Origin: Agromyces sp. G08B096 | Lineage (GTDB): Bacteria; Actinomycetota; Actinomycetes; Actinomycetales; Microbacteriaceae | Assembly: GCF_040267705.1 (NCBI RefSeq) | Contig: NZ_CP158374.1 | Coordinates: 1,178,001-1,242,000, forward strand | DNA length: 64,000 bases | Reading direction: 5' to 3' | In this document: one piece after another, positions 2,541 through 62,340 of the stretch | How positions within the stretch are numbered: the first letter of the stretch is position 1 | Layout: each line of letters starts with the position of its first letter | The notes under the pieces: generated by a model | Seen by the model: the letters and a program-made list of their open reading frames with translations, nothing else | The model's database searches: none | What the model was told of the DNA's origin: nothing | Program-made: the position numbers and the translations under genes

Positions 2541-2562
2541 GGATGCCTCCGACGAGGCATCC
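2541..2562. terminator. Stem-loop downstream of the aminotransferase, made of an inverted GGATGCCTC pair
   Basis: GGATGCCTC, tetraloop CGAC, GAGGCATCC: a perfect 9-bp stem 57 bases after the aminotransferase stop. There is no U-tract, as usual in high-GC Actinobacteria. Both arms are copies of the over-represented word described in the findings. The rest of 2485-2749 shows nothing I can interpret. Confidence 0.6.
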
Positions 2563-2749
2563 CGCCGCTCGGTGCCGCTTCGTGAACGAGCCATGACGCC
2601 CCGCGTGTCGCTGCCACGGATTCGCCCCCGCGGACGTACCGTCGGCACATCGGGCAAGTCGCCCGATCGAGTCGGCTCGTGAACCGCTCGTGGGAGGATC
2701 GCCGGCCGGCGCGAAGAGCCGAGCGGAAGCGCTCGGGGCGGGAGCGGTC

Positions 2750-4132
2750 GTGGCAACAGGTGCAACTTCCCAGTCCGACGGTCGGCAGACGGGCGCGCAG
2801 GCGCGCTCGCGGGTCGCGTCCTCACACGCGGCGGCGCAGGCCGAGCGGACCTATGTGCTCGACACGTCGGTGCTGCTGAGCGATCCCCGGGCGCTATTCC
2901 GGTTCGCCGAGCACGCCGTCGTGCTGCCCGTGGTCGTCATCACCGAGCTGGAGGCCAAGCGGAACGACCCGGAGATCGGGTACTTCGCCAGGCAGTCGCT
3001 GCGGATCCTCGACGAGCTGCGGATCGAGCACGAGCGGCTGGACTTCCCGATCCCGGTCGGCGACGGCGGCTCGCTGCGGGTCGAGCTCAACCACTCGAGC
3101 CCGTCGGTGCTGCCGAGCGGGCTGCAACTCGGCGACAACGACTCCAGGATCCTCGCGTGCGCCGCCAACCTCGCCAACGACGGGGTCGCCGTCACCGTGG
3201 TCTCCAAAGACCTGCCGCTGCGCGTCAAGGCCGCCGCGATCGGCATCGACGCCCAGGAGTACCGCGCCGAGCTCGCCGTCGACTCCGGGTGGACGGGGAT
3301 GGCCGAGGCCACCCTCGGCTCCAACGACATGGCGAAGCTCTACGAGCACGAATCGCTCGTCGTCCGCGAAGCCGTCGGGATGCCGGTCAACACCGGGCTC
3401 GTGCTGCATTCCGACCGCGGCTCCGCCCTGGCCCGCGTCACGGGTGACGACGGCGCCGTCCGCCTCGTCCGCGGCGACCGCGAGGTCTTCGGAGTGCACG
3501 GCCGGTCGGCGGAGCAGCGACTCGCGATCGACCTCCTGCTCGACCCCGAGATCGGCATCCTCTCGCTCGGCGGCCGCGCCGGCACCGGCAAGTCGGCCCT
3601 CGCGCTCTGCGCCGGCCTCGAAGCCGTGCTCGAACGCCAGCAGCACAAGAAGATCATGGTCTTCCGTCCGCTGTACGCCGTGGGCGGCCAGGAGCTCGGC
3701 TACCTGCCGGGCGACCAGGTGGAGAAGATGAACCCCTGGGCGCAAGCCGTCTTCGACACGCTGGGCTCGGTCGTCTCCGACAACGTGCTCGACGAGGTCG
3801 TCGACCGGGGCATCCTCGAGGTGCTGCCGCTCACCCACATCCGCGGCCGGTCGCTGCACGACGCGTTCGTGATCGTCGACGAGGCGCAGTCGCTCGAACG
3901 GAACGTGCTGCTCACGGTGCTGAGCCGGATCGGGCAGAACTCCCGCGTCGTGCTGACCCACGACGTCGCGCAGCGCGACAACCTCCGCGTCGGCCGGCAC
4001 GACGGCGTCGCGTCGGTGATCGAGACATTGAAGGGCCACCCGCTGTTCGCGCACGTGACGCTCACGCGCAGCGAGCGGTCGGCGATCGCCGCGCTCGTGA
4101 GCGAGATGCTCGACGGGGCGGAGCTGGCGTGA
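2750..4132 (+). CDS. PhoH family protein: N-terminal PIN nuclease domain plus PhoH ATPase
   Basis: Predicted ATP-dependent RNA-processing protein; PIN-PhoH proteins of mycobacteria act as RNA helicase/ribonucleases in the VapBC-related PhoH2 family. Residues about 33-165 form the PIN domain: '[13 protein letters not shown]' with the first catalytic Asp, '[10 protein letters not shown]' with the Glu, and '[12 protein letters not shown]' with the later Asp pair. Residues about 240-455 form the PhoH ATPase: Walker [10 protein letters not shown] near 274, Walker B VIVDEAQS near 374. The frame is open back to a GTG at 2690, but GTG 2750 has GGGCGGGAG just upstream and removes a low-complexity N-terminus, so I prefer it. 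About 460 residues, normal for the family. A KTSC-domain gene follows after seven bases and is probably cotranscribed. Confidence 0.88.
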
Positions 4133-4139
4133 CGGGCTG

Positions 4140-4355: not shown

Positions 4356-4439
4356 CGGCGTCGGGATCCGCGGTCGGGCGGCGGGGCACCCTGCGCCCGG
4401 CGGCGGCGACGGCGATGCTCGCTCGTCGGGGCGCGCGCG

Positions 4440-4898: not shown

Positions 4899-4931
4899 AG
4901 CCGGAAGTCTAGGCCATTCGATGCAAAAACA

Positions 4932-4955: not shown

Positions 4956-5003
4956 TAACGTTATCGACACCACCAGAGATCGCTCCGGAAAGGACCCAGA
5001 CGG

Positions 5004-6383: not shown

Positions 6384-6408
6384 GCGACGCCGGGCATCGG
6401 CGCAGACG

Positions 6409-6447: not shown

Positions 6448-6461
6448 GTGCGGGCGACGCC

Positions 6462-7877: not shown

Positions 7878-7957
7878 GTGCGTGTTCCCTTCGCTTGCGT
7901 TTGGCTTCGGCGTGCTGCCGGATGCCTCGGCCGTTCGCGCGGCGCGGACGCTGAGCG

Positions 7958-9519: not shown

Positions 9520-10800
9520 CTATTCGGCGCCGCCGACGGCCTCCGCCGCCGCGGGGCGGTGATCGGATGCCTCCCCCTCGGACACCGCCGCGAGCGTGCC
9601 GCCGGCGAGCGTCAGGGTGAGGGCCTCGCCGGCCGGGGCATCCGACGCCTCCCGGAGCACCCGGCCGTCGGCGCCCTGCGCGATCGCGTACCCGCGGTCG
9701 AGCGTCGCCTGCGGCGACAGCGCCCGGAGGTGCGTGCGGAGCGCGCTCACGCGCGCCTGCTGGCGCTCGAGCTGGCGCTCCACGAGGTCGGTGCCGCGGG
9801 CGACCCACCGGGTGAGCTCCTCGGCGCGCCGGTCGATGATCCAGTCGGGCGTGGCGAGCGAGGGCCGCGACCGGAGGTGGGCGATGCGATCGGTCTCGCG
9901 CGTGAGGATGGCCGACAGGCGCATGCCGAGCCGCGCGCGAGCGTGCTCGACGCGCGCGAGCTCCTCCGTCACATCGGGCACCACGCGCTTGGCCGCATCG
10001 GTCGGCGTGGAGGCACGCAGGTCGGCGACCTCGTCGAGGAGCGGCCGGTCGGCCTCGTGGCCGATCGCCGACACGATCGGGGTGGATGCCGCGGCCGCGG
10101 CCCGCACGACGCGTTCATCGCTGAAGCCGAGGAGGTTCTGGAAGTCGCCGCCGCCGCGCGCCACGATGATGACCTCCACCTCGGGGTCGGCATCCAGACG
10201 CTCGATGGCGCGCACGACCTCGGGCACCGTGCGATCGCCCTGGACGGCCGCGTACACGGTGCGGAACTCCACGGCCGGCCACCGCAGGCGGGCGTTGCGG
10301 AGCACGTCCTGCTCGGCGTCGGAGTCGCGACCGGTCACGAGCCCGATCACGCGGGGGAGGAAGGGCAGCGGGCGCTTGCGGTCGAGCGCGAACAGGCCTT
10401 CGGCCGCGAGCTGGGCGCGCAGCCGCTCGAGTCGTTCGAGCAGATCGCCGAGGCCCACGTGGCGGAGGTCGTAGACCTGCATCGTGAGCGAGCCGCCCTT
10501 GACCCACCAGCTGGGCTTCACGAGTGCGACGACACGGTCGCCCTGCTTGAACTGCTCGGTGAGTCGCGCGCGCACCGACGACCAGATCGTGAACGACACC
10601 GTGGCGTCGACGTCGCAGTCTTTGAGCTTGCCGTACACGTTTCCCGCCGACACGCCCCACTGGGTGAGCTCGCCCTCGACCCAGACGGTGCCGAGCCGGT
10701 CGACGTACTCCTTGAGCTTGCCCGAGAGCACCGACACGGGCCACGGCGTCTCGCGCGTGGTGGGGCCTTGGGCCAACGGTCGCTCCCAGCCGCTCGTCAT
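9520..10800 (-). CDS. xseA: Exodeoxyribonuclease VII large subunit
   Basis: Catalytic subunit of exonuclease VII. The 426-residue protein starts with an N-terminal OB fold ('[10 protein letters not shown]....NVYGKLKD', about residues 35-110), then the catalytic domain with '[16 protein letters not shown]', '[20 protein letters not shown]' and '[30 protein letters not shown]', ending in the coiled-coil that binds XseB. The ATG at 10800 is the first in frame after the divergent ispH promoter. It heads the operon with xseB and DUF4245. Confidence 0.95.
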
Positions 10801-13747: not shown

Positions 13748-14725
13748 ATGCACGAGCGACTCGCCGACGGCTTCCTCCACGCCTGCGCGGCCGCGGCGCG
13801 CACCGCGCTCCCGCTCGTCGGCGCCGGCGACGGCGACGCGGTCGACGGGGCGGCCGTCGCGGCGCTCCGCGCAGGGCTCGACGACCTGCCGATGTCGGCG
13901 CGCGTCGTCGTGGGCGAGGGGGAGAAGGACGGCGCGCCCATGCTCGCGCCGGGGGAGCGGCTGGGTCGCGGCGGTCCCGATGCGCCGGCGTTCGACCTCG
14001 CGATCGATCCGGTCGACGGGACGCGCCTGGCCGCGGCGGGCCGTTCCGGAGCGCTCGTCGTGGTGGCGGTCGCGCCGCGCGGCGCACTCGCCGACCTCGC
14101 CGCGGCGCACTACCTCGAGAAGCTCGCGACGTGGCTGCCCGCAGCACGTCAGGCGGATGCCTCGGGCGACGGCCCCGCGCCGCTCCTCGAACGTCTGCCG
14201 TGGCTGGTGCACCGGATCGCGGCGGCTCGCCAGGTCGATGCCGGGCAGGTGGTCGTCGCGGTGCAGGACCGGCCGCGGAACCGGGCCTACGCGGACGCCG
14301 CCGCCGGGGCGGGCGCTCGCGTCGAGCTGTTCGAACACGGCGACGTCGAGCGGACGTTCCGGGCGGCCCGGCCCGGTCACGGCATCGACATCGTCGCCGG
14401 CATCGGCGGCGCGCCGGAGGGCGTGCTTACGGCGGTCGCCGTGCGCTCGCTCGGCGGCGACCTGCGGGTCCGGCCCGCCCCGCAGTCGGAGGCCGAGGCA
14501 GGGCGGATCCTCTCGGCTGGGATCGCGCCCGATCGGGTGCTCGGCCTCGACGACCTCTGCGCCGCGAGCCCCGGCGAGGAGACGGTGTTCGTCGCCGCGG
14601 TCACCCAGGCCGACGTCGGGGTCCCGTTGACCGGTGCGACCCGTCGCGGGCGAGGCATCCGCGTCGCGGCCTGGACGTCGGCTCGGCCCGCCGACGCGGT
14701 GACCATCGACTTTCCCGACGGTTAA
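13748..14725 (+). CDS. Divergent GlpX-like phosphatase, tandem paralogue of the next gene
   Basis: A 325-residue member of the class II fructose-1,6-bisphosphatase fold. Metal/catalytic elements are kept: VDGAAV, GEGEKDGAPML, DPVDGT, HGDVE and GIGGAPEG. Relative to E. coli GlpX the RGDK segment is AGDG, so the lysine and arginine next to the active site are missing; the KPRH segment is RPRN; and the C-terminal RTIRRI block is absent. The acceptor-substrate side is therefore altered while the metal site is intact. It may act on a different phosphate ester or be regulatory. The ATG follows GAGGAT (13736-13741) by six bases. The next gene, 114 bases on, is the canonical enzyme. Confidence 0.75.
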   Translation: MHERLADGFLHACAAAARTALPLVGAGDGDAVDGAAVAALRAGLDDLPMSARVVVGEGEKDGAPMLAPGERLGRGGPDAPAFDLAIDPVDGTRLAAAGRSGALVVVAVAPRGALADLAAAHYLEKLATWLPAARQADASGDGPAPLLERLPWLVHRIAAARQVDAGQVVVAVQDRPRNRAYADAAAGAGARVELFEHGDVERTFRAARPGHGIDIVAGIGGAPEGVLTAVAVRSLGGDLRVRPAPQSEAEAGRILSAGIAPDRVLGLDDLCAASPGEETVFVAAVTQADVGVPLTGATRRGRGIRVAAWTSARPADAVTIDFPDG

Positions 14726-14839
14726 GAACGCCCGATCTTGCACGGACGTGCGGGCCTCAGGCGGGCTCCGGTGAAGGCCCCGCGGCTAGGCTCGAATCGG
14801 TGGGAGACCCCGCCGACCGGCCCCGGAAGGACCTCGAAG

Positions 14840-15835
14840 GTGAGCACCGACGACAGCCTCTACCTGCACCCCGACCGCAACATCGCCCTCGAGCTCGTGC
14901 GCGCGACCGAAGCCGCCTCGATCCGCGCCTACCCATGGATCGGGCGGGGCGACAAGATCGGAGCCGACGGCGCCGCCGTCGACGCGATGCGTGCCTTCCT
15001 CGGCACCGTGAACTTCGACGGCGTCGTCGTGATCGGCGAGGGCGAGAAGGACGAGGCGCCGATGCTCTTCAACGGCGAGCGGGTCGGCAACGGGCGCGGA
15101 CCCGCGTGCGACATCGCCGTCGACCCGATCGACGGCACCTCGCTCACCGCAGCCGGGCGGCAGAACGCCCTCTCGGTGATCGCCGTCGCCGACCGCGGCA
15201 CCATGCTCGACGCGTCGAGCGTCTTCTACATGGACAAGATCGTGACGGATGCCTCGGGCAAGGGCGTCGTCGACATCCGCAAGCCGATCGGCGAGAACCT
15301 CCGCGCGCTCGCCGCGGCGAAGGGCAAGCAGGTCGGCGAGCTCCGCGTCGCCGTGCTCAACCGGCCTCGGCACGAACAGCTCATCGCCGACATCCGCGAG
15401 GCCGGGGCGGGCACCCGGCTGATCAGCGACGGCGACGTCGCGGGCGGCATCAACGCCGCCCGGTACGAGTCCCGCATCGACATGTGCGTCGGCATCGGCG
15501 GCAGCCCCGAGGGCATCACGACCGCGTGCGCGATCAAAGCGCTCGGGGGCTTCATGCAGGGCCGGCTCGCCCCGAAGGACGACGCCGAGCGCGCCCGCGG
15601 CGAGGCGGCGGGGCTCGACTGCGACCGCGTGTACGAGCTCGACGACCTGGTGCGCAGCGACAACACCTTCTTCGTCGCCACCGGTGTCACCGACGGCGAG
15701 CTCGTCGACGGCGTGCGGAAGAAGGGGCCCGTCATCCGCACGGAGTCCATCGTGCTCCGAGGCCGCTCCGGCACGATCCGCCGCATCGTCGCCGACCACC
15801 TCGTCGAGAAGTGGCTCGACGAGGGCGACCGCTGA
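14840..15835 (+). CDS. glpX: Class II fructose-1,6-bisphosphatase
   Basis: Removes the 1-phosphate of fructose 1,6-bisphosphate in gluconeogenesis. The 331-residue protein has all expected motifs: GRGDKIGADGAAV, GEGEKDEAPML, DIAVDPIDGTSLTAAG, NRPRHEQLI, SDGDVAGG, GIGGSPEG and the C-terminal RSGTIRRI. GTG 14840 is chosen over an in-frame ATG at 14738 because GGAAGGA lies 8-14 bases upstream and the protein then begins near the usual 'LYLHPDRNIALELVRATE'. It is the main FBPase; the upstream paralogue lacks several of these residues. Confidence 0.94.
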   Translation: MSTDDSLYLHPDRNIALELVRATEAASIRAYPWIGRGDKIGADGAAVDAMRAFLGTVNFDGVVVIGEGEKDEAPMLFNGERVGNGRGPACDIAVDPIDGTSLTAAGRQNALSVIAVADRGTMLDASSVFYMDKIVTDASGKGVVDIRKPIGENLRALAAAKGKQVGELRVAVLNRPRHEQLIADIREAGAGTRLISDGDVAGGINAARYESRIDMCVGIGGSPEGITTACAIKALGGFMQGRLAPKDDAERARGEAAGLDCDRVYELDDLVRSDNTFFVATGVTDGELVDGVRKKGPVIRTESIVLRGRSGTIRRIVADHLVEKWLDEGDR

Positions 15836-19964: not shown

Positions 19965-20057
19965 GTCCCGCATCGTGCCACGTGCCGCCGACGGTTGACG
20001 GATGCCTCGCCGCGGGCGTGGAATGGGCGCGAGGACCCGCCCGGAAGGGAGGCCGAA

Positions 20058-20837
20058 ATGGCCGAGGCATCCGACCCATCGCTCGTCACCGACCCCGCCG
20101 ACCCGGCGACCCGGCGGTCGGCGAGATCGTTCGGCCTCGCGGCATCCGTCTACCAGACGGCCCGGCCGGGGTACCCGGCCGAGGCGGTCGCGTGGCTCAT
20201 CGGCGATGCCGAGCGCGTGCTCGACCTCGGCGCGGGCACGGGCAAGCTCACCGAGGCGCTCGTCTCCCTCGACCGCGAGGTGATCGCCGTCGACCCCGTC
20301 GAGGAGATGCTCGAGGAGCTGGAGGTGCGCGTCCCCGGCGTGCCCCGCATCCTCGGCGTGGCCGAGGACATCCCGATCGAGGACGACTCGGTCGACGCCG
20401 TCGTCGCCGGGCAGGCGTGGCATTGGTTCGAGGCCGACCGTGCCGTCGCGGAGATCGCGAGGGTGCTGAAACCCGGCGGAGTGCTCGGACTGGTCTGGAA
20501 CAGCCGCGACACCCGCGCGGGGTGGCTGCACGAGGCCGGTGAGCTCATGCACGAGCGGCACGACGCGAGCGTCACGTTCGAATCGTACGTCCGCATCGGC
20601 CCGCCGTTCGGGGCCATCGAGGAGCATCAGGTCGAGTGGGTCGAGACGATGACGCGCGCGCGGTTCCTGGACCTCGTCCGCTCGCGGTCGGCCTTCATCA
20701 CCGCCGGCGAGGCCGAACAGCAGTCGACGATCGCGGCGATCGAGATGCTGCTCGCCACTCATCCCGACGTCGCCGGCGCCGCTGAGCTCGCGGTGCCCTA
20801 CGTGACCCGCTGCTTCCGCGCCCGGCTCGGCGGCTGA
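20058..20837 (+). CDS. Class I SAM-dependent methyltransferase
   Basis: A 259-residue methyltransferase of the UbiE/TAM type. After 'RSFGLAASVYQTARPGYPAEAV' comes motif I VLDLGAGTGKL (about residues 55-65), then 'VIAVDPVEEMLEEL' (motif II acidic residue), 'DSVDAVVAGQAWHWF' (motif post II) and 'ARVLKPGGVLGLVWN' (motif III). The substrate is not predictable; the QAWHWF variant is found in small-molecule methyltransferases. GGAAGGGAGG precedes the ATG. It ends four bases before the convergent hydrolase gene. Confidence 0.86.
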   Translation: MAEASDPSLVTDPADPATRRSARSFGLAASVYQTARPGYPAEAVAWLIGDAERVLDLGAGTGKLTEALVSLDREVIAVDPVEEMLEELEVRVPGVPRILGVAEDIPIEDDSVDAVVAGQAWHWFEADRAVAEIARVLKPGGVLGLVWNSRDTRAGWLHEAGELMHERHDASVTFESYVRIGPPFGAIEEHQVEWVETMTRARFLDLVRSRSAFITAGEAEQQSTIAAIEMLLATHPDVAGAAELAVPYVTRCFRARLGG

Positions 20838-20841
20838 GCGA

Positions 20842-21648
20842 TCACGTGCGCGACTCGCCGTCGACGCGGTCGAGCCAGTCGACGAGCAACGCGTCGAGCA
20901 GCGTCGGCCGTTCGATCTGCAGGTTGTGACCCGCGACGTCGAGCACGGCGAAACTCGCGTGCGGGTAGTGCTCGAGGAGGTCCCACTGGTCGAGGTAGCC
21001 CGTCACGTTGTCTTGGCGGCCCGTCACGATCAGTGTCGGCGCGAGGAGTGGCCCGTCCGACTCGGGCGGGCTCGTCAGCGCATACGCCGACCGGATGCGC
21101 GCCACCGCTGCCTGGTCGGCGCGCGAGAGTCCCGGGGCGATCTCGGCGCGGAACCGGCGCCAGGTCTCGGGCGACTGGACGACCGCGATCTCGGTGAAGT
21201 CCGCCGCCTCGGCCGGGTCGAGGCCGGCGACGAGCTCAGGGTCGGACCGGCGGACCTCCAGCGGCGGTACGCGTCGATCGTGCGACTCGACCGCGGTGCC
21301 CATCGGGCAGATGAGCGCCAGGCCGAGCACTCGGTCGCGCCTCCGGTTCGCGATCGCCCGCGCGAGATATCCGCCGAAGGACTCACCGACGAGAAGGAAC
21401 GGCGCATCGCCGATCGCCTCGTCGAGGAACTCCTCGACGCGCGCGAGCACGTCGTCGGTGCTCGAGACGCCGTCGCCGGGTGAGCGGCCGAGCCCCGGCA
21501 GGTCGGGATACAGGCGGCGGATGCCGCCCCGGGCGGACAGCACGGGCTCGAGGCATCCGCTCATCAGCTCATGGTCGACGGGGAATCCGTGCAGAGCGAC
21601 GAGCGGGACGCCGTCGCCGCGATCGAGGGCGTTGAGACGGTGGGTCAC
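20842..21648 (-). CDS. Alpha/beta hydrolase
   Basis: A 268-residue hydrolase: oxyanion-hole HGFP at 20-23, nucleophile elbow GESFGG with Ser90, acid in 'VTGRQDNVTG' and the catalytic His in 'VAGHNLQIE'. GTG 21648 is preferred to an ATG at 21678, since it puts the HG motif at the usual distance and stands seven bases after TACTGT on the minus strand (leaderless pattern). The substrate is unknown. It is divergent from ychF. Confidence 0.82.
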   Translation of the reverse strand: MTHRLNALDRGDGVPLVALHGFPVDHELMSGCLEPVLSARGGIRRLYPDLPGLGRSPGDGVSSTDDVLARVEEFLDEAIGDAPFLLVGESFGGYLARAIANRRRDRVLGLALICPMGTAVESHDRRVPPLEVRRSDPELVAGLDPAEAADFTEIAVVQSPETWRRFRAEIAPGLSRADQAAVARIRSAYALTSPPESDGPLLAPTLIVTGRQDNVTGYLDQWDLLEHYPHASFAVLDVAGHNLQIERPTLLDALLVDWLDRVDGESRT

Positions 21649-21714: not shown

Positions 21715-22788
21715 GTGGCACTCACCATCGGAATCGTCGGCCTCCCCAACGTCGGCAAGTCGACGCTGTTCAACGCTCTCACCAAGAACCAGGTGCTCGC
21801 GGCGAACTACCCCTTCGCGACCATCGAGCCGAACATCGGCGTGGTGAACCTGCCCGACCCGCGGCTCGAGGTGCTCGCCGGCATCTTCGGCTCGGAGCGC
21901 ATCCTGCCGGCCACCGTCTCGTTCGTCGACATCGCCGGCATCGTCCGCGGCGCGAGCGAGGGCGAGGGGCTCGGCAACAAGTTCCTCGCGAACATCCGCG
22001 AGGCCGATGCGATCGCGCAGGTCGTGCGCGGCTTCAGCGACTCCGACGTCGTGCACGTCGACGGCGCCGTCGACCCGAAGGCCGACATGGAGACCATCAA
22101 CACCGAGCTGATCCTCGCCGACCTCGAGACCCTCGAGCGCGCCATCACGCGCTATGAGAAGGAGGTCAAGGGCAAGAAGCTCGACCCGTCGGTGCTCGCC
22201 GCCGCCGTCGAGGCTCGTGACGCCCTGCAGGCCGGCACGCCGCTCTCGGCGACCAAGATCGACCTGGAGCCCGTCAAGGAGCTCGGTCTGCTCACCGCGA
22301 AGCCGTTCATCTACGTCTTCAACGTCGACGAGGACGTGCTGACGGATGCCTCGAAGAAGGCCGAGCTCGCAGCGCTCGTCGCGCCGGCCGAGGCTGTCTT
22401 CCTCGACGCGAAGATCGAGTCCGAGCTCATCGACCTCGACCCGGCCGACGCGGCCGAGCTGCTCGCCTCCACCGGGCAGGAGGAGTCGGGCCTCGACCAG
22501 CTCGCGCGCGTCGGCTTCGACACGCTCGGCCTGCAGACCTACCTCACCGCCGGCCCCAAGGAGTCGCGCGCGTGGACCATCCGCAAGGGATGGAAGGCGC
22601 CGCAGGCGGCGGGCGTCATCCACACCGACTTCGAGCGCGGCTTCATCAAGGCCGAGGTCATCTCGTTCGACGACCTCGTCGCCGCCGGCTCGGTCGCCGA
22701 GGCCCGCGCCAAGGGGAAGGCCCGCATGGAGGGCAAGGACTACGTCATGCAGGACGGCGACGTCGTCGAGTTCCGGTTCAACGTCTGA
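21715..22788 (+). CDS. ychF: Redox-regulated ATPase/GTPase YchF (OLA1 family)
   Basis: Universally conserved P-loop NTPase that binds ribosomes and prefers ATP; implicated in translation and oxidative-stress response. The 357 residues include G1 GLPNVGKST (8-16), 'FATIEPNIGVV' (G2), 'DIAGIVRGASEGEGLGN' (G3), the coiled-coil insertion, and the C-terminal TGS-like domain ending 'DYVMQDGDVVEFRFNV'. Length normal. The GTG start lies eight bases after TAGGCT (21701-21706), with no Shine-Dalgarno. Confidence 0.96.
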   Translation: MALTIGIVGLPNVGKSTLFNALTKNQVLAANYPFATIEPNIGVVNLPDPRLEVLAGIFGSERILPATVSFVDIAGIVRGASEGEGLGNKFLANIREADAIAQVVRGFSDSDVVHVDGAVDPKADMETINTELILADLETLERAITRYEKEVKGKKLDPSVLAAAVEARDALQAGTPLSATKIDLEPVKELGLLTAKPFIYVFNVDEDVLTDASKKAELAALVAPAEAVFLDAKIESELIDLDPADAAELLASTGQEESGLDQLARVGFDTLGLQTYLTAGPKESRAWTIRKGWKAPQAAGVIHTDFERGFIKAEVISFDDLVAAGSVAEARAKGKARMEGKDYVMQDGDVVEFRFNV

Positions 22789-24823: not shown

Positions 24824-25399
24824 TCAGTCGGGCGTCGTCTCCGAGCGCAGACGCGGCTCCGTTCGCCGGCGCGGGGTGAACCCGGCCTTGTCGGCGTAGA
24901 AGGAGCGGATGCGGTCCATGTCGTGCGAGACGTCGCCGGTGAGCTCCATCGTCGGGCCGAGCCCCGTGGTCATGGTCGTGCGATCCACATAGCCGAGGGT
25001 CACCGGCATCCCGGCGTCGCGGGCGATGCGGTAGAAGCCCGACTTCCAGTACTCGTTCGCCCCCCGCGTGCCGTCGGGCGTGACCACGAGGCCGAAGACC
25101 TCGCCGGCCCGCACACGCGCCACCACCTCGTCGACGACGCGTCCGGCATCGGCTCGGTCGACGGGGATGCCTCCCAGCCGACGCATGATCGGACCCCGCC
25201 AGCCCGCGAAGAGGCTCTGCTTGCCGAGCCAGCGCACGTCGATGCCGAGCTGCCAGGCGATGGCGAGCATGAGCACGAAGTCCCAGTTCGAGGTGTGCGG
25301 CGCGCCCACGAGCACGGTGGGGCGCGTCGGCGCCGGTTCGGTGACCAGCTTCCACCGGCTGCAGGCCCAGAAGAGGCGGGAGACGAGTCGACGGAGCAT
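24824..25399 (-). CDS. 1-acyl-glycerol-3-phosphate acyltransferase-like protein
   Basis: A 191-residue PlsC-like protein. Motif I is 'GAPHTSNWDFVLML' (HX4D), motif II 'LFAGWRGPIMRRLGGIPVDR', and motif III 'VTPDGTRG', where the usual EGTR glutamate is Asp. This is characteristic of a small-acyltransferase branch distinct from classical PlsC; lipid acylation is likely but the acceptor is unknown. The ATG follows TACCGT on the minus strand by six bases (leaderless pattern). It ends 59 bases from the convergent CWB2-M23 gene. Confidence 0.82.
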   Translation of the reverse strand: MLRRLVSRLFWACSRWKLVTEPAPTRPTVLVGAPHTSNWDFVLMLAIAWQLGIDVRWLGKQSLFAGWRGPIMRRLGGIPVDRADAGRVVDEVVARVRAGEVFGLVVTPDGTRGANEYWKSGFYRIARDAGMPVTLGYVDRTTMTTGLGPTMELTGDVSHDMDRIRSFYADKAGFTPRRRTEPRLRSETTPD

Positions 25400-28011: not shown

Positions 28012-28227
28012 TCAGGCCGCGTGCGACCGGTCGTCGACGCGGACTCGGCTGACCGCCTCGGGCGCTGAGGTGAAGCGCCCGGCGCGGCCGTCGGTCGTCA
28101 CGTACTGCACGCGGATGCCTCGCCCGATGCGCGCCAGCTTCGTGACCTCGTACTCGCGCCCCGAGGTGTTGACGAGCGTGTCGCCGACTCGCAGGTAGCG
28201 AGTCTGTCGCAGTTCGATGGCCTCCAT
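28012..28227 (-). CDS. Small conserved-looking hypothetical protein
   Basis: A 71-residue, soluble, basic protein with alternating beta-like segments: 'YLRVGDTLVNTSGREYEVTKLARIGRGIRVQYVTTDGRAGRFT'. The pattern suggests a small SH3- or KOW-like beta barrel, but that is a guess. It reads in the same direction as the J-like copy 2 gene upstream of it (53 bases downstream of that stop) and converges on the acetyltransferase gene after 17 bases. Codon usage is like its neighbours, which supports a real gene. Confidence 0.6.
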   Translation of the reverse strand: MEAIELRQTRYLRVGDTLVNTSGREYEVTKLARIGRGIRVQYVTTDGRAGRFTSAPEAVSRVRVDDRSHAA

Positions 28228-36941: not shown

Positions 36942-38083
36942 GCCGCCACGATACCGCGCACGGCCGACACTGCTCTGGCCACCGCGTCTGCGGCGAGCGA
37001 AACCTCCTCGGCCGTGGTCTCCCGGCCGAGGGTGAACCGCACGGCCGTCTGCGCCAGTTCGGCGGGCACGCCCATCGCGGTGAGCACATGCGAGGGCTCG
37101 TCGCGTCCGGCGGCGCACGCCGAGCCGCTCGAGGAGAGGACGCCGTCGCGTTCGAGCTCGAGCAGCACCGCCTCGCCGGCGGCGCCGGGGAAGACGAACG
37201 ACGCCGTGCCCGGGAGCCGGGCCACCCGGTCGCCGGTCAGCTCGGCGCCGGGGATCTCGGCGAGCACCCGGTCGACGAGCGCCTCGCCGAGGGCGCGGAC
37301 CCTGGCCGAGGCATCCGCTCGTTCCTCCTCCGCGAGGCGCAGCGCGGTCGCGAACGCCACGGCACCCGCGACGTTCTCCGTGCCGGATCGGCGACCGCGC
37401 TCCTGGCCGCCGCCGTGCAGCACGGGCTCGATCGGCAGCCGTCCGCGCACGATCAACGCCCCCGTGCCCTTGGGCGCGCCGACCTTGTGTCCGGCGAGCG
37501 AGAGCGCGTCGGCACCGAGCCCGTCGAGGCCGAGCGGCAGCCATCCCGCGGCCTGCACGGCGTCGGTGTGCACGGCCGCGCCGGCCGCGTGCGCGATGCG
37601 TGCGAGCTCGGCGACCGGCTGGACCGTGCCGACCTCGTTGTTCGCCAGCTGGACGGACACGAGCGCGGTGTCGGGCCGGATGACCCGGGCCAGGGCATCC
37701 GGGTGCACGAGGCCGCCGCGGTCGACGTCGACCACCGACACCTCGAAGCCGTGCCGGCGCTCGAGGAAGCGTGCGGACTCCAGCACCGCCTCGTGCTCGA
37801 TCGCCGAGACGACGACGTGCCGCCCGCGGGGTGTCGCGAGCGCGAGCCCCTTCACGGCGAGGTTGTCGGCCTCGGTGCCGCCGCCCGTGAAGACGGCGTC
37901 ACCGGGCCGTGCCCCCACGACCGCGGCGACCTCGGCCCGGGCCCACTCGAGCGCCCGGGCCGCCTCGTCGCCGAGGCGATGCCGGCTCGACGGGTTGCCG
38001 AACGCGCCCGTGAGGTAGGGCCACATCGCCTCGAGCGCCTCGCGGCGGACCGGCGAGGTGGCGGCGTGGTCGAGGAAGATCAC
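36938..38083 (-). CDS. Cysteine desulfurase of the NAD operon (NadS-like)
   Basis: A 381-residue class V PLP enzyme that removes sulfur from cysteine as a persulfide. It starts 'IFLDHAATSPVRREALEAM', has 'GGTEADNLAVKG', 'VSAIEHEAVLES', the PLP lysine in 'SLAGHKVGAPKG', 'RRSGTENVAG' and the active-site loop 'SSSGSACAAG' with the catalytic Cys. The position after nadC in the nadA-nadB-nadC operon is that of NadS, proposed to supply sulfur for the [4Fe-4S] cluster of NadA. GTG start at 38083, twelve bases after the nadC stop. A general IscS role cannot be excluded. Confidence 0.88.
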   Translation of the reverse strand: MIFLDHAATSPVRREALEAMWPYLTGAFGNPSSRHRLGDEAARALEWARAEVAAVVGARPGDAVFTGGGTEADNLAVKGLALATPRGRHVVVSAIEHEAVLESARFLERRHGFEVSVVDVDRGGLVHPDALARVIRPDTALVSVQLANNEVGTVQPVAELARIAHAAGAAVHTDAVQAAGWLPLGLDGLGADALSLAGHKVGAPKGTGALIVRGRLPIEPVLHGGGQERGRRSGTENVAGAVAFATALRLAEEERADASARVRALGEALVDRVLAEIPGAELTGDRVARLPGTASFVFPGAAGEAVLLELERDGVLSSSGSACAAGRDEPSHVLTAMGVPAELAQTAVRFTLGRETTAEEVSLAADAVARAVSAVRGIVAA

Positions 38084-38947: not shown

Positions 38948-40485
38948 CAGGCGGCCTCCAGCTCGGGTGCGGTGGATGCCCCGGCCGGGGCATCCGATCG
39001 GAAGTGGGCGCCGACGCTCTCGCGACGTGCCAGGGCGGCGTCGACGGTGAGCCGGGCGAGGTCGAGCAGGTTGCGGTCCTCCGCACTCGCCCGGTCGACG
39101 GGGTCCGGCGCGCGCCAGGCGGCGAGCCGGGCGGATGCCTCGGCGAGACCCGCCGCGTCGCGTTCGAGGCCGGCCCGGGTCCACATGAGCTGCTGCAGTG
39201 CGGCGCGGTCGACCGTAGGCGCCTCCGCCCGGATCGCAGCCGGGGCCGACCGTCGGGCCGCGTCTGCCGGATCGCTCGAGTCCGCGGCGCCGGCCTGGCG
39301 GGTGGCATCCTCAGCAGCGGCTCCGCCGGCTAGCGCGCGTGCCGCTCGGTCGGCGAAGACCGCGGCCTCCAGCAGCGAGTTCGAGGCGAGCCGGTTCGCG
39401 CCGTGCACGCCCGTGCGGGCGCACTCGCCCACGGCGAGCAGGCCCGGAAGGCTGCTCCGGCCGTCGAGGTCGGTGATGATGCCGCCCATGGCATAGTGCG
39501 CGGCCGGGATGACGGGGATGGGTTTCCGCGACCAGTCGAAGCCGGCATCCCGCGTCACCCGGTCGAGGCCGGGGAACCGGCGGGCGAGGAACGCGCCGCC
39601 GAGGGCGGTCGCGTCGAGCAGCACGGCGGAGCCGCCCTGCTCGGCCATACGACGCCAGCTCGCCCGGGCGACGACGTCGCGAGGAGCGAGTTCCGCGCGC
39701 GCGTCGACGGCGGGCATGAATCGGATGCCCCGCGCGTCGAGCAGTACCGCCCCCTCGCCGCGGACGGCCTCGGAGATGAGCGGCGTGCCCGGCGCCGCGA
39801 GCGCTGTCGGGTGGAACTGGGTGAACTCGAGATCGGCGACCGCCGCGCCCGCCCGCCACGCTGCGGCCACGCCGTCGCCGGTCGCGACGGCCGGGTTCGT
39901 CGTATGCCGGTAGAGGCATCCGCTGCCGCCCGTCGCGAGCACCACGGCGTCGGCGCGATGCTCGGCGACCGTGCCGTCGGCGTGCAGGATCGCCGCGCCG
40001 GTCACGCGGCCGCGCTCGACGAGGAGGTCGACGAGCATCGCCCGCTCGACGATCGAGACGGCGCGGCGGCGGACGGTGGCCACGAGCGCCTGCTCGATCG
40101 CCGCGCCGGTCGCGTCGCCGCCCGCATGCACGATGCGGGCGCGGGAATGCGCGGCCTCGAGCCCGCGGTCGAGGCCCGACTCGCCGCGATCGAACTCGAC
40201 GCCGAACCGGATCAGGTCGCGAACGCGCGCCGGGCCCTCGTCGCAGAGCACGCGGACGGCGGCGGGGTCGCCGAGACCGGCGCCGGCTTCCAGCGTGTCG
40301 CGGAGGTGCCGCTCGACCGAGTCGTCGGGGAAGAGGGCCGCGGCGATACCGCCCTGCGCGTAGCGCGTGCTGCCCTCGGCGAGGTCGGCCTTGGTCACGA
40401 GCTCCACGCGGTGCCCGGCGTCGGCGGCGCGCACCGCGGTCCACAGCCCCGCGATGCCGCCGCCGACCACCAGGACGTGCCCCAT
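38947..40485 (-). CDS. nadB: L-aspartate oxidase
   Basis: FAD enzyme oxidising L-aspartate to iminoaspartate, first step of de novo NAD synthesis. The 512-residue protein shows the FAD-binding 'HVLVVGGGIAGLWTAVRA', 'STRYAQGGIAAAL', 'EFTQFHPTAL', 'HYAMGGIITDLDGR' and 'NRLASNSLLEA', as in succinate dehydrogenase/NadB flavoproteins. The region at about 395-430 is an Ala-rich spacer before the C-terminal helical domain. The ATG at 40485 stands one base after the nadA stop. Confidence 0.94.
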   Translation of the reverse strand: MGHVLVVGGGIAGLWTAVRAADAGHRVELVTKADLAEGSTRYAQGGIAAALFPDDSVERHLRDTLEAGAGLGDPAAVRVLCDEGPARVRDLIRFGVEFDRGESGLDRGLEAAHSRARIVHAGGDATGAAIEQALVATVRRRAVSIVERAMLVDLLVERGRVTGAAILHADGTVAEHRADAVVLATGGSGCLYRHTTNPAVATGDGVAAAWRAGAAVADLEFTQFHPTALAAPGTPLISEAVRGEGAVLLDARGIRFMPAVDARAELAPRDVVARASWRRMAEQGGSAVLLDATALGGAFLARRFPGLDRVTRDAGFDWSRKPIPVIPAAHYAMGGIITDLDGRSSLPGLLAVGECARTGVHGANRLASNSLLEAAVFADRAARALAGGAAAEDATRQAGAADSSDPADAARRSAPAAIRAEAPTVDRAALQQLMWTRAGLERDAAGLAEASARLAAWRAPDPVDRASAEDRNLLDLARLTVDAALARRESVGAHFRSDAPAGASTAPELEAA

Positions 40486-42703: not shown

Positions 42704-42737
42704 GACCGGACAATCTCACACCGGGCCATCGACGCGT

Positions 42738-42950
42738 CGCGGGAGAGCCGGCAGCCCAGCCATCGGCAGGGCCGGCCGGCACCGAAGGAGCAAGCCTCCC
42801 CGCCAATCTCTCAGGTCACACACCGCGATGACGAGGCCGCTCTGAAAAGTGGATCGAGCAGGCTCTGCCTCGTCCCGCCCAAGGTGAAAGCGCCCGAGCC
42901 CGACCGCTCGGCGTGAAACTCTCAGGCCCATGACAGAGGGGGAGTTCTCA
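42738..42950 (+). ncRNA. Tandem glycine riboswitch
   Basis: Two successive aptamers lie between the TAGACT promoter and gcvT. The first begins GCGGGAGAGC and holds 'GCACCGAAGGAGCAAGCC' and closing 'AATCTCTCAGGTC'; the second begins near 42838 with 'GCTCTGAAAAGTGG', holds 'GCCCAAGGTGAAAGC', 'GGCGTGAAACTCTCAGG' and closes with 'GACAGAGGGGGAG'. These are the conserved core words of the gcvT RNA element. In this class, glycine binding usually switches on the downstream glycine cleavage genes. gcvT starts about 44 bases after the second aptamer. Confidence 0.95.
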
Positions 42951-44608: not shown

Positions 44609-47500
<2,892 letters not shown>

Positions 47501-47832: not shown

Positions 47833-48321
47833 ATGATCTCCGTCGATCTCGTCGCCGTACTCGCGAGCGTCGCCTTCGTGGGCGCGATCGTCGGGTCCAC
47901 CCTGCTCGCCTCGGACGGGCTCGGGCTCGACCGACGGGCCGCGATGCTCGAACGACGCGATCCCGGCACCGCCGAGGCGCTCCGCCGGGCCGGCGCGATC
48001 GGCGACTACTCGCGCGGCGGCATCTTCGGCGACGAGGCCTTCGCGGCGGTGTGCACCCCGACGAGACGATCGGCGCTCGACATGGCGCGCGTGCGCGCCA
48101 CCGACTCCGACCTGCGCATCGAGCCGCCCGAGGAGGCGCTGCCGCCGATGCCCGCCACGGTCGTCGCGCTGGCCAGCGGGACGCACGTCGCGACGAGGCA
48201 TCCGTCGCCCGCCGGCTCGCCCGCCGGCCCGGCGGCACCGCGTCCCGCGGCACCAGCGGTCACGCCGACGGGGGAGCGAACAGCGCCGGCCACCACATCG
48301 CCGCGAGCGGATACCCGATGA
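47833..48321 (+). CDS. Hypothetical protein with N-terminal transmembrane helix
   Basis: A 162-residue protein. 'SVDLVAVLASVAFVGAIVGSTLLAS' (residues 3-27) is a transmembrane anchor; a 90-residue hydrophilic region follows and a Pro/Ala/Thr-rich tail. TACACT (about 47800) may be its -10 and AGGGGGCC its ribosome site. Its last 62 bases overlap the 3' end of the convergent CPBP gene, both frames being open, so the two C-termini share DNA. No family recognised. Confidence 0.6.
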   Translation: MISVDLVAVLASVAFVGAIVGSTLLASDGLGLDRRAAMLERRDPGTAEALRRAGAIGDYSRGGIFGDEAFAAVCTPTRRSALDMARVRATDSDLRIEPPEEALPPMPATVVALASGTHVATRHPSPAGSPAGPAAPRPAAPAVTPTGERTAPATTSPRADTR

Positions 48322-57972: not shown

Positions 57973-58799
57973 GTGGCGGAGTCGGTGAACCGCGGTTCCC
58001 GCTTCTCGAGGAACGCGGCGACGCCCTCGCGCTGATCGGCCGTGCCGAATGCGTCGCGGAAGCCCGCGATCTCGAGTTCGGTGGCGGTCGCCGTCGGCGT
58101 GCCCGCCGCAGACACGAGCACGCGCTTCGCGAGCGCGACCGCGGAGGCGGAGTTCGCGGCGACGAGGTCGAGCGTCTCCCGGGCGCCGGCGAGGAGCGCG
58201 TCGCGGTCGGCGAACCGCTTCGCGACCAGGCCGATGGCGACCGCCTCGTCCGTGCCGATCTGACGACCCGTGTAGATCAGCTCCTTCGCGCGGGCGGCGC
58301 CGACGGCTCGGGGCAGGCGCACGGTGCCGCCGAAGCCCGGGATGAGGCCGAGTTTGACCTCCGGCTGGCCGAAGCGCGAGGCATCCGTCGCATAGATGAG
58401 GTCGCACGCGAGCGCGAGCTCGAGCCCGCCGCCCAGCGCGAACCCGTCGACGGCGGCGATGACGGGCACGGGCAGCGCCTCGACGGCGGCGGCGACGGCG
58501 TGGCCGCGCTCGGCCGTCTCGGTGCCCTGCTCGGGTGTGAGCCCGGTCATGGCGCGGATGTCGGCGCCGGCGACGAACGCCCGGCCGCCTTCACCCGCGA
58601 GGATGACGCCCGCGAGGTCGCCGGGCTCGTCCGAGAGCTCGGCGAAGACCCGGGCCAGCTCGTCGAGCACCTCGGGGGAGAGGGCGTTCAGGCTCTTCGG
58701 CCGGTCGATCACGACGGTCGCGATGCGGCCGTCGCGCTCCACGCGGACGGCGGGCGACGGCTGCTCGTCCGCGGGGCGGGCGGGGGACTGGTCGGTCAT
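57966..58799 (-). CDS. Enoyl-CoA hydratase/isomerase family protein
   Basis: A 277-residue crotonase-fold enzyme, probably hydrating 2-enoyl-CoA in fatty-acid or amino-acid breakdown. '[10 protein letters not shown]' and '[19 protein letters not shown]' form the oxyanion hole and first catalytic Glu region; '[20 protein letters not shown]' holds the second catalytic Glu, so true hydratase activity is likely. The ATG has GGAGAGGA eleven bases upstream. The N-terminal 20 residues are disordered. There is no beta-oxidation operon around it. Confidence 0.9.
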
Positions 58800-59335: not shown

Positions 59336-59375
59336 ACTGGATCCTGTCAGCCGCTTCGAAGGGACAGCGCCCACC

Positions 59376-59696: not shown

Positions 59697-60808
59697 TGGG
59701 GCTCGGGCCGCTGCCCGACTACCCGTGGGATTCGATGGGCCCGTACCGGGCCCGTGCTGAGGCACATCCCGACGGGCTGATCGATCTGTCGATCGGTTCA
59801 CCCGTCGACCCGACGCCCGAGCTGATCCGCTCGGCCCTCGCCGACGCGACGGATGCGCACGCCTACCCGGCGACGGCCGGCACGCCGGCGCTCCGCCGGG
59901 CGATCGTCGACTGGTTCGCGCGGCGTCGCGGCGTGACGGGGCTCGACGAGGCATCCGTGCTGCCGACCATCGGCTCGAAGGAGCTCGTGGCGCTGCTGCC
60001 GTTCCTGCTCGGACTCGGCGCCGGCGACGTGGTCGTCCACCCTCGGGCGGCATACCCGACGTACGAGATGGGCGCGGTGTTCGCGGGGGCGACGGCGTTC
60101 GCGTCCGACGATCCTGCCGAGTGGCCTGCGGCGACGCGGCTGATCTGGCTGAACAGTCCCGGGAACCCCGACGGCCGCGTGCTCGGTCTCGACGAGCTGC
60201 GAGCAGCCCGCGCCCGCGCGCGCGAGCTCGGCGCGTGGATCGTGGGCGACGAGTGCTACGCCGAGCTCGGCTGGGAGGGGGAGTGGGCGACGGGCGCCGT
60301 TCCGAGCCTGCTCGACCCGCGGGTCACGGGCGGCGACCTCGAGCGCACGCTCGCCATCTATTCGCTCTCGAAGCAGTCGAACATGGCGGGGTACCGCGCC
60401 GCGTTCATCGCCGGATGCCCCGCCTCGATCGAGCGGCTCACGACGGCGCGCAAGCACGCCGGGCTCATGCTGCCGGCGCCGCTGCAGGCGGCGATGACCG
60501 TCGCCCTCGGCGACGACGAGCATGTCGCAGCGCAGAAGGACCGGTACCGAGTCCGTCGCGACCTGCTGAAGCCGGCGCTCGAGGCGGCCGGGTTCCGCAT
60601 CGACCGGAGCGAGGCCGGGCTCTACCTGTGGGCGACCGAGGGGCGCGACGCGTGGGACTCGATCGGTCGGCTCGCCGATCTCGGCATCCTCGCGGGCCCC
60701 GGCCACTTCTACGGGGTGCACTTTCCCCAGCACGTCCGGCTCTCGCTCACGGCGACCGACGAGCGCGTGGCATCCGCCGCCGCCAGGCTGGGCACGTCGG
60801 CGCGGTGA
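59696..60808 (+). CDS. dapC: Succinyldiaminopimelate transaminase
   Basis: PLP aminotransferase of lysine and diaminopimelate biosynthesis. The 370-residue fold-type I protein has 'YPATAGTPALRRAIVDWFARRRGV', 'WLNSPGNPDGRVL' (Asn contacting PLP), 'IVGDECYAELGW' and the Schiff-base lysine in 'YSLSKQSNMAGYR'. The FdxA-adjacent position identifies it as the actinobacterial DapC (mycobacterial Rv0858c type) rather than a general aminotransferase. TGATG coupling with fdxA. Confidence 0.88.
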   Translation: MGLGPLPDYPWDSMGPYRARAEAHPDGLIDLSIGSPVDPTPELIRSALADATDAHAYPATAGTPALRRAIVDWFARRRGVTGLDEASVLPTIGSKELVALLPFLLGLGAGDVVVHPRAAYPTYEMGAVFAGATAFASDDPAEWPAATRLIWLNSPGNPDGRVLGLDELRAARARARELGAWIVGDECYAELGWEGEWATGAVPSLLDPRVTGGDLERTLAIYSLSKQSNMAGYRAAFIAGCPASIERLTTARKHAGLMLPAPLQAAMTVALGDDEHVAAQKDRYRVRRDLLKPALEAAGFRIDRSEAGLYLWATEGRDAWDSIGRLADLGILAGPGHFYGVHFPQHVRLSLTATDERVASAAARLGTSAR

Positions 60809-61011
60809 TCTCCGCGGCACGGCCCGGCGACAACCGGACGCAGGCCGGCCGGCGCATCCGGCCGACTGTGCGAACAGGCAACGGACGCCCGGTTGCCTTG
60901 GCGGATGCCACAGTGTGCCGCGGGCGCGTCTAGGCTGTAGTGGGCCGATGGCGCCGCCCGGGCGCCCGGCAGGAGAAGGTGACCGCGCAAGTGACGATCA
61001 CAGGAGGCGCC

Positions 61012-62322
61012 GTGAGCGACGTCGAGAACCCCGCGGGAGGGCAGAGCCCCCTCACCGCGACGCTGAACTTCCCCGGCGGCACCGCGGAGTTCCCGATCCG
61101 GACGGCCGTCGAGGGCAACTCGAGCCTCGACCTGTCGACGCTGACCCGGCAGACCGGGTTCACCGGCCTCGACTACGGCTTCGTGAACACCGCGTCCACG
61201 CGCTCCGCGATCACCTACATCGACGGCGAGCAGGGCATCCTCCGCTACCGCGGCTACCCCATCGAGCAGCTCGCCGAGCACTCCACCTACCTCGAGGTCG
61301 CCTGGCTGCTCATCTACGGCGAGCTGCCCACGGCCGACCAGCTCGCCGAGTTCGACGAGAAGATCCGCCGGCACACGCTGCTGCACGAAGACCTCAAGCG
61401 GTTCTTCTCCGCGCTTCCGCACACCGCGCACCCCATGGCCGTGCTCTCGAGCGCGGTCTCGGCGCTGTCGACGTACTACGAGGACTCCTCCGACCCGCAC
61501 GACCCCGATCACGTCGAGCTCACCACCGTGCGCCTGCTGGCCAAGCTCCCCGTGATCGCCGCCTACGCGCACAAGAAGAGCATCGGCCAGGCGTTCCTCT
61601 ACCCCGACAACTCGCTGTCGTTCGTCGAGAACTTCCTGCGGCTGAACTTCGGCAACCTCGCCGAGCCGTACACGATCGAGCCGACGCTCGCGCGGGCGCT
61701 CGACCGGCTGCTCATCCTCCACGAAGACCACGAGCAGAACGCCTCGACCTCGACCGTGCGTCTCGTCGGCTCGACCGGCGCGAACCTCTACGCGTCCATC
61801 TCGGCCGGCATCCAGGCGCTCTCGGGCCCGCTGCACGGCGGAGCGAACGAGGCCGTGCTGCAGATGCTCGCCCGTATCCAGGACTCGGGCGAGGGTGTCG
61901 CGAAGTTCGTCGAGCGCGTCAAGCGCAAGGAAGACGGCGTGAAGCTCATGGGCTTCGGGCACCGGGTCTACAAGAACTACGACCCGCGCGCGAAGATCGT
62001 CAAGCAGTCGGCCGACGCCGTGCTCGAGGGCCTCGGCGTGAATGACCCGCTGCTCGACATCGCGAAGGAGCTCGAGCAGTTCGCCCTGGAGGACGACTAC
62101 TTCAAGGAGCGGCGGCTCTACCCGAACGTCGACTTCTACACCGGCGTCATCTACAAGGCCATGGGCTTCCCCACGCGCATGTTCACCGTGCTGTTCGCCA
62201 TCGGCCGGCTCCCCGGCTGGATCGCGCACTGGCGCGAGATGAACCTCGACCCGCAGACGAAGATCGGCCGCCCGCAGCAGCTGTACACGGGCGAGGCGGA
62301 GCGCCGCTACCCGGGCGCGTAG
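61012..62322 (+). CDS. gltA: Citrate synthase
   Basis: Condenses acetyl-CoA and oxaloacetate at the entry of the TCA cycle. The 436-residue protein has 'YRGYPIEQLAEHS', the catalytic residues in 'GPLHGGANEAVLQML' (His), 'GFGHRVYKNYDPRA' (His) and 'YPNVDFYTG' (Asp), and 'PGWIAHWREM'. GTG 61012 is preferred because AGGAGG stands four bases before it; in-frame GTGs at 60979 and 60991 and an ATG at 60940 are alternatives. TAGGCT near 60932 may be the promoter -10. Nothing else is seen in the 203 bases upstream apart from a weak GGCAAC/GTTGCC repeat. Confidence 0.95.
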   Translation: MSDVENPAGGQSPLTATLNFPGGTAEFPIRTAVEGNSSLDLSTLTRQTGFTGLDYGFVNTASTRSAITYIDGEQGILRYRGYPIEQLAEHSTYLEVAWLLIYGELPTADQLAEFDEKIRRHTLLHEDLKRFFSALPHTAHPMAVLSSAVSALSTYYEDSSDPHDPDHVELTTVRLLAKLPVIAAYAHKKSIGQAFLYPDNSLSFVENFLRLNFGNLAEPYTIEPTLARALDRLLILHEDHEQNASTSTVRLVGSTGANLYASISAGIQALSGPLHGGANEAVLQMLARIQDSGEGVAKFVERVKRKEDGVKLMGFGHRVYKNYDPRAKIVKQSADAVLEGLGVNDPLLDIAKELEQFALEDDYFKERRLYPNVDFYTGVIYKAMGFPTRMFTVLFAIGRLPGWIAHWREMNLDPQTKIGRPQQLYTGEAERRYPGA

Positions 62323-62340
62323 CGCGAGGCATCCGATCGC

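Follow-up and report, generated by a model that had tools for sequence, protein, structure and literature searches.

Why does one ten-base word recur, in genes and between them, along a stretch of an actinobacterial chromosome? The window considered here is a whole 64 kb stretch of the Agromyces sp. G08B096 chromosome (3.59 Mb), bases 1178001-1242000 of its single 3,593,141-base contig. The original prediction, made by eye, listed 22 positions of the 9-mer GGATGCCTC or its complement GAGGCATCC in this window. All 22 are present, no further match exists on either strand, and 20 of the sites extend to the 10-mer CGGATGCCTC as had been stated. In 100 dinucleotide-preserving shuffles of the window the 9-mer appeared on average 0.87 times (maximum 3) against 22 observed, which agrees with the chance expectation below one given earlier, and the 10-mer 0.49 times (maximum 3) against 20. 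The Markov check that had been proposed gave a similar picture, with 0.62 copies of the 10-mer expected under a third-order model of the window; GGATGCCNC occurs 60 times. Judged by its sequence features, the word appears to be kept by evolution in hundreds to thousands of copies on chromosomes of soil bacteria of a single family, and it closely resembles the "self" tags that serve DNA uptake elsewhere.

The excess is not confined to the window. Across the whole genome the 10-mer has 824 copies (423 forward and 401 reverse), whereas the same letters written backwards occur once (0 forward and 1 reverse). Composition was controlled on a 464 kb sample of the same genome, consisting of the window and 20 evenly spaced 20 kb stretches; genes called by a crude script cover 73% of it, and the counts given below for this genome refer to this sample. 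A third-order Markov model expects 4.4 copies of the 10-mer where 108 are observed, and GGATGCC is found 561 times against 156 expected. When synonymous codons were shuffled within each of 319 called genes in 100 runs, the 10-mer appeared 3.1 times (maximum 8) against 73 observed coding copies, and GGATGCC 148 times against 395. Neither of the two outcomes named beforehand as fatal was seen: no Markov or codon-shuffled model reproduced the count, and the excess did not vanish in the rest of the genome. Of two control words in the same shuffles, GCATCGG also exceeded its expectation (161 vs 119, largest 141) and the reversed word CCGTAGG fell below it (19 vs 25). Chance, dinucleotide or Markov composition and codon bias were thus rejected as sources by shuffles, Markov models and codon shuffling.

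The unit itself is degenerate rather than a fixed 10-mer and can be written CGGATGCC-N-C(G). The degenerate position N, which is position 9 of the 10-mer, is filled by T in 108 copies, G in 91, C in 56 and A in 21. Changes of position 1 show a moderate excess (21 copies with G, 10 with T and 6 with A, against 2.1, 1.7 and 2.5 expected), and the remaining single-base variants number 0 to 9 copies each. The consensus is therefore close to CGGATGCC-N-C-G with a weak preference for G or A before it, and flanks beyond about 12-14 bases hold little information. A larger repeat element was rejected as the source on account of these uninformative flanks, one 54-bp array in sampled stretch L016 excepted. 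The idea that the word is a by-product of codons, amino acids or composition, or stems from a repeat element or a family of terminators that has spread, can point to that tandem array, which carries the word, and to the two frames that account for 54 of the 73 coding sites. The synonymous shuffles, the short informative core and the small number of paired sites all count against it; its probability is close to nil, and for the bulk of sites it is excluded.

If the word is under constraint, it should be kept at orthologous positions, a check proposed with the original prediction and run here within Agromyces. Of the 59 other Agromyces genomes, 54 supplied a syntenic glpX block, in some cases a short one; G006, G011, G021, G040 and G052 were left out, as their glpX sits close to the end of a contig or the start of a record. 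From the all-against-all alignment we dropped 56 of 2,970 ordered pairs with <3,000 aligned bases, the 296 of 903 sites that fall outside called genes, and any site with <5 control words, the latter matched for codon phase and A/T pattern. Coding GGATGCCNC sites were retained in 5155 of 11225 comparisons (0.459) against 0.144 for the matched controls, that is 3.2 times as often and with a gap in every identity class; because the compared genomes share ancestry and their pairs are not independent, it is this effect size that counts. Other words put through the same test gave ratios of about 1.2-1.35 (CCGTAGG, GCATGCC, GCATCGG, GGTAGCC) or below 1 (GGATCCC).

Matched controls were used because the retention signal sits in kept A/T and rare codons, not in G/C positions, and a plain per-position identity profile around the sites gave no clear excess at G/C positions. 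Among codons whose first two bases were kept, survival inside the motif compared with elsewhere was 0.74 vs 0.19 for GCA, 0.70 vs 0.33 for GAT, 0.88 vs 0.47 for TCC, 0.50 vs 0.21 for GGA, 0.81 vs 0.59 for GCC and 0.78 vs 0.51 for CAT. It hardly differed for TGC (0.94 vs 0.93) and GGC (0.86 vs 0.81), and was lower inside the motif for CTC (0.61 vs 0.81), GAG (0.69 vs 0.83), ATG (0.88 vs 0.95) and ATC (0.95 vs 0.97); CTC and GAG span its degenerate position. Since GCA, GAT, TCC and others survive more often inside the motif, it is the word, rather than the encoded protein, that keeps rare synonymous codons in place. Whatever its function, a word found throughout a genus and in much of a family that keeps rare synonymous codons is a constraint on very many genes.

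As had been noted at the outset, the word occupies coding and intergenic DNA alike: 37 copies of the 10-mer are sense and 36 antisense to called genes, 34 lie outside them and 1 runs over a gene edge. Four parS-like sites and a gene judged by eye to be DnaA-like, at 0.1-7.7 kb, mark the origin, and the terminus is assumed to lie opposite. On that basis the 10-mer is split 53 to 55 between leading and lagging strands and GGATGCCNC 192 to 212, so that replication polarity is absent. Chi and the FtsK-orienting polar sequences and SpoIIIE recognition sequences (KOPS/SRS) are octamer-like chromosomal words that are likewise over-represented but strand-polarised. A recombination hotspot of the Chi type or a segregation signal of the KOPS type would explain why a short word has hundreds of copies, mainly in coding DNA, but is disfavoured by the even leading/lagging split and seems to us highly improbable. 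For the suggested recognition site of a chromosome-organising or recombination protein this speaks against the polarised kinds and leaves an unpolarised binding protein as a rival. The absence of replication polarity, with copies in both orientations, is a defining trait of the DNA uptake sequences (DUS) and uptake signal sequences (USS). Gaps between GGATGCCNC sites average 1,074 bp with a coefficient of variation of 1.00, like random placement; every one of the 21 sampled stretches has such sites, and their number per 5 kb increases with GC content (Spearman 0.34).

Close neighbours are arranged in a preferred order. Of 31 neighbouring GGATGCCNC pairs within 60 bp, 19 are +-, 3 -+, 5 ++ and 4 --, the +- order giving a hairpin of the form GGATGCC...GGCATCC; tested against one quarter, this bias has p = 2e-5 with or without the L016 array. 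Of the 19, 13 fall outside called genes; five have a called stop codon no more than 60 bases away, to the precision of the crude gene calls, and two of these five are between convergent genes. Six example pairs folded into stable structures; for four the margin over shuffled sequence was clear (z -3.8 to -9.1), for two it was weak (z -1.7 and -1.9). The inverted pair at 2541-2562, described originally as a terminator-like hairpin, folds at -26.4 kcal/mol (z -3.8); its left arm is CGGATGCCTC at 2540-2549 (+) and its right arm the 9-mer GGATGCCTC at 2554-2562 (-), so that the hairpin at 2540-2562 sits 56 bases past a called stop codon. The window holds a second inverted pair, GGATGCCGC ... GAGGCATCC, at 21519-21558 (no strand) outside called genes, with CGGATGCCTC at 21550-21559 (-) as its right arm, and a third, GGATGCCCC ... 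GGGGCATCC, at 38974-38995 (no strand), a variant with N = C within a called open reading frame. Inverted pairs between genes may double as terminators. The tandem array, at L016:3995-4201 (2,703,995-2,704,201 of the genome), comprises 3.8 units of 54 bp, most of them with an inverted word pair.

How far does the word extend beyond this genome? The GlpX protein encoded in the window has its nearest named relatives in three Agromyces (92-94% identity), in agreement with a place in this genus of the Microbacteriaceae. All 60 Agromyces genomes searched, the present one included, carry the 10-mer, in 70 to 1,390 copies against 0 to 7 of the reversed control. In a scan of the order we took the ratio of CGGATGCC to its reversed word in 248 genomes, 18 from Microbacteriaceae (four genera: six genomes of Agromyces, nine of g85, two of g79 and one of g50) and 230 from elsewhere. 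The ratio has a median of 14.3 in the family (2.6-21.8, with 3 of 18 below 4) and of 1.57 in the others (maximum 3.96), so within this set strong enrichment is found only in Microbacteriaceae. Across 249 family genomes the enrichment of the GGATGCC core varies; it is 25-fold in G116 (7,364 to 293), for example, and absent in G110 (229 to 245). In loci of Leifsonia, Streptomyces, the Arthrobacter group and Amycolatopsis GGATGCC stands at 0.7-1.5 times expectation.

Flanks preferred around this core were derived from de novo word counts. The named loci all come from the glpX region, so that words of conserved genes are counted repeatedly in groups of several loci; groups of a single genome consist of 80 kb of that genome and are free of such repeat counting. 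Within Agromyces the present genome prefers CGGATGCCTCG, G036 CGGATG[CT]CTCG and G005 G[CT]GGATGCCG, and most of the 54 Agromyces blocks favour G at the degenerate position. Elsewhere in the family we find GACGGATGCCG in G112, about ACGGATG[CT]CGCG in G065 and G138, CGGATG[CA]CCCG in G111, and GGATGCCG preceded by C, T or A in four Microbacterium loci. A common GGATGCC core is thus combined with genus- and species-specific flanks.

Other words were met along the way. In Frigoribacterium (L035, L046, L049) the word GGAGGCGCG, often as AGGAGGCGCGG, is enriched on both strands, 2.4 copies being expected in 48 kb and 27 present, all but one of them in L046 and L049; it is possibly an unrelated word in the same role within a motif-poor genus. 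A palindrome, CGGATCCG / GCGGATCC, is over-represented in the Microbacterium loci L032, L042, L047 and L048 (62 vs 13.9, both strands counted), where GGATGCC is not (28 vs 21.7), and has 13 copies in Clavibacter L053.

Recently arrived DNA offers a further view. Seven of the 60 Agromyces genomes have an HK97-type capsid match, and 6 of the matches exceed the curated cut-off; the matches in the present genome (G000) and in G005, the one below the cut-off, were not pooled. In the five resulting prophage regions (108 kb), whose limits were drawn by eye from GC dips and may include host DNA, CGGATGCC has 22 copies at an observed/expected ratio of 2.1, compared with 84 copies and a ratio of 7.8 in the glpX blocks of the same hosts (94 kb). 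For GGATGCC the ratios are 2.1 and 4.8. CGGATGCC is therefore about four-fold scarcer in prophages than in their hosts, with five of five regions below their own host's block, and in Microbacterium phage Min1 CGGATGCC stands at 1.1 times expectation. A stretch of the present genome, L014 (2340001-2360000), has a GC content of 0.67, several short called genes and no copy of CGGATGCCTC; it is perhaps a recently acquired island, its poverty in the word having been noticed before the label was given.

These properties would suit a binding site for an unpolarised chromosome-organising or nucleoid protein of Microbacteriaceae, active in bridging, compaction or segregation. Selection for coverage would then keep the sites, and foreign DNA would yet have to gain them, in keeping with the random-like placement, the presence of GGATGCCNC in all sampled stretches, the conservation at orthologous sites, the missing polarity and the scarcity in prophages. 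Neither the +- bias of close pairs nor the change of flank preference between species is predicted by such a site, and no candidate protein turned up, although no systematic search was made. We consider this protein unlikely, if the more serious of the chromosomal candidates.

We favour a DNA-uptake-type self-recognition sequence. The anatomy of the word matches that of DUS and USS in the sequence features that could be tested, and we put this explanation at about one half. Under this proposal the competence apparatus would have, at the cell surface, a receptor with a preference for double-stranded DNA bearing CGGATGCC-N-C(G); the receptor would probably be part of a Tad/Flp-type pilus that feeds ComEA and ComEC. 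Imported kin DNA would recombine with the chromosome, and alleles with a good copy would displace alleles without one. Such a drive would multiply the word, fix its places, spread its copies over both strands and between genes, and leave it scarce in recent foreign DNA. As the specificity of the receptor drifted, the flanks would change together, which would give rise to genus and species dialects around GGATGCC. The uptake bias, the reading of the word by a receptor and the identity of that receptor are all inferred parts of the proposal.

The suggestion of an uptake-like sequence in the original prediction is supported in part, by abundance, absent polarity, inverted hairpin pairs, retention, scarcity in prophages, variants that share a core and the presence of competence genes; ComEC and T2SSE, however, do not track the word. 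The genome encodes ComEA (SLBB and helix-hairpin-helix) and ComEC, together with two Tad-like loci that hold T2SSE ATPases, one of them also a T2SSF protein. The Tad/Flp labels rest on the T2SSE and T2SSF matches and on small proteins judged by eye to be pilin-like, two of them without a Pfam family match. Several points weigh against uptake. Among the family genomes searched, motif-poor ones included, ComEC occurs in 245 of 249 and T2SSE in all 90; their presence failed as a discriminator of word-rich genomes, and since both are near-universal in the family the machinery is permissive and explains no pattern of the word. Prophages still hold twice the expected word count, and both site retention and prophage scarcity would be expected of any selected binding site. 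Natural transformation has been described for two Microbacteriaceae, Rhodoluna lacicola and Aurantimicrobium photophilum, and in the portion of that report available to us the strains took up linear DNA, Rhodoluna also a plasmid (PMC11577799). An Aurantimicrobium minutum locus has 4 GGATGCC in 21 kb and a locus of a Rhodoluna metagenome-assembled genome 3 in 13 kb; to judge from these loci, which come from other members, the two genera reported to be transformable do not seem visibly word-rich.

A PilB-type ATPase as the required machine was rejected as well. Many genera of Microbacteriaceae have, besides weaker Tad-like matches, a full-length T2SSE match at E <1e-130, which we take to be PilB-like; the two Agromyces drawn lack it. 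The best T2SSE matches of the present genome lie near 1e-41 and their neighbours are Tad-like in look, so a PilB-type ATPase is not needed for the word. Transformation of Micrococcus luteus depends on its Flp/tad genes, according to the accessible text of PMC4322843.

A modification site was another of the original candidates, and a conserved enzyme is available for it. An N6_N4-type methyltransferase matches in 58 of 60 Agromyces genomes, the two misses being draft genomes, and 18 of the 58 were looked at closely. The enzyme of the present genome has 319 aa and is encoded on the - strand at G000:C1:3287148-3288107 (L219:9148-10107; start codon assigned by hand); it matches PADLOC MTase_II (PDLC03300, 2e-150), and its nearest solved relative is M.RsrI. 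In the 17 other Agromyces genomes fetched it is 72-85% identical, G005 excepted. In G005, whose preferred flanks diverge, the methyltransferase is 58% identical, and a further copy has HPPA in place of the DPPF residues (L220, L221). The neighbours examined include lipoate-ligase, LacI, luciferase-like and surface-protein genes, and no restriction enzyme is among the 9 proteins adjoining the methyltransferase at 5 loci, which makes for an orphan-looking enzyme. A methylation-linked word like the cyanobacterial highly iterated palindromes (HIP), its sites created and maintained by an orphan DNA methyltransferase through biased repair, would draw on this near-constant presence, on the diverged copies in G005 and on the observation that HIP1 and its replacements generally accompany cognate methyltransferases (PMC4390886, as excerpted).

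The idea is weakened by the occurrence of a close methyltransferase in Nesterenkonia, a genus without CGGATGCC excess. Nesterenkonia cremea (Micrococcaceae) has a 75% identical enzyme over 220 aa, and in seven Nesterenkonia loci CGGATGCC occurs 5 times against 10-16 expected and GGATGCC 46 times against 32-42 (1.1-1.4 times; 1.4-2.2 times at the N. cremea locus); of the seven loci, only that of N. cremea is tied to a genome that bears the enzyme. GGATGCC is also not palindromic, unlike the HIPs. We regard a HIP-like origin as rather improbable. A hybrid, in which an uptake motif is recognised in methylated form with the conserved methyltransferase supplying the mark, has a precedent in Campylobacter jejuni, in the part of PMC8468864 at hand. 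It would gather the support of both parents (site retention, inverted pairs and the methyltransferase in 58 of 60 genomes) and inherit the difficulty posed by the Nesterenkonia enzyme, and we think it less probable still. Taken together, the methylation-linked explanations claim about one fifth of our belief.

Set beside known systems, the word comes closest to the DUS of Neisseriaceae, which in the available sections of PMC3630211 show inverted terminator pairs and dialects that share a core. Shared with the DUS are thousands of copies of a short word in coding and intergenic DNA, inverted pairs of the kind linked to terminators, and variant flanks around a common core; the Agromyces word differs in its letters, in belonging to a high-GC Gram-positive family and in having one openly degenerate position. 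The same three differences set it apart from the USS of Pasteurellaceae, which resemble it as a short motif (ca. 9-12 nt for USS and DUS) with genome-wide enrichment and dialects (PMC12616744, in part). No receptor for the word was identified, no search for a ComP-type minor pilin having been made. Like Agromyces, C. jejuni has a short, frequent motif, used there for self-recognition in transformation, and Agromyces has a conserved methyltransferase as well; the mark in C. jejuni is the methylation of the motif, as far as the excerpt of PMC8468864 goes, whereas in Agromyces the word itself is strongly enriched. HIP1 is likewise very frequent with alternates in some relatives, but is palindromic and, in the passages seen of PMC4390886, generally tracks its methyltransferases, unlike the asymmetric GGATGCC with a close methyltransferase in a genus that shows no CGGATGCC excess.

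The text available of a 2025 paper gives DNA uptake sequences as known only from Neisseriaceae and Pasteurellaceae (PMC12616744). Among the matches listed in the open-licence PMC literature none described this word, or any uptake sequence, from Actinobacteria, subscription papers and preprints lying outside that scope. Microbacteriaceae might be the third bacterial family, and the first Gram-positive one, with a dialect-bearing DNA uptake sequence, arisen independently of DUS and USS with Tad/Flp-type pili and a wall without an outer membrane; other genera, such as Frigoribacterium, may have switched words. We hold this as a tentative view, a shade short of an even call. If true, a third, actinobacterial case would show the trait to have independent origins, and this with another envelope and another type of pilus. 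It would also predict which soil- and plant-associated actinobacteria are naturally transformable, and the word, placed in donor DNA, might aid the transformation of these genera.

Apart from the arms of the inverted pairs, copies of CGGATGCCTC in the window lie on the + strand at 7919-7928, 9564-9573, 14154-14163, 15246-15255 (within a glpX-type fructose-1,6-bisphosphatase gene, 14738-15835), 19999-20008, 22343-22352 (within a YchF-type GTPase gene, 21715-22788), 28112-28121 and 39132-39141. Those on the - strand are at 14652-14661, 20064-20073, 33679-33688, 37308-37317, 39913-39922, 45678-45687, 48195-48204, 58378-58387, 59948-59957 and 62326-62335, and the site at 25165-25173 (+) is GGATGCCTC, the 9-mer only. 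The window also holds a glycine riboswitch aptamer (RF00504, 54.4 bits) at 42730-42835 (+), and among the genes downstream of it is one for a glycine dehydrogenase (44609-47500).

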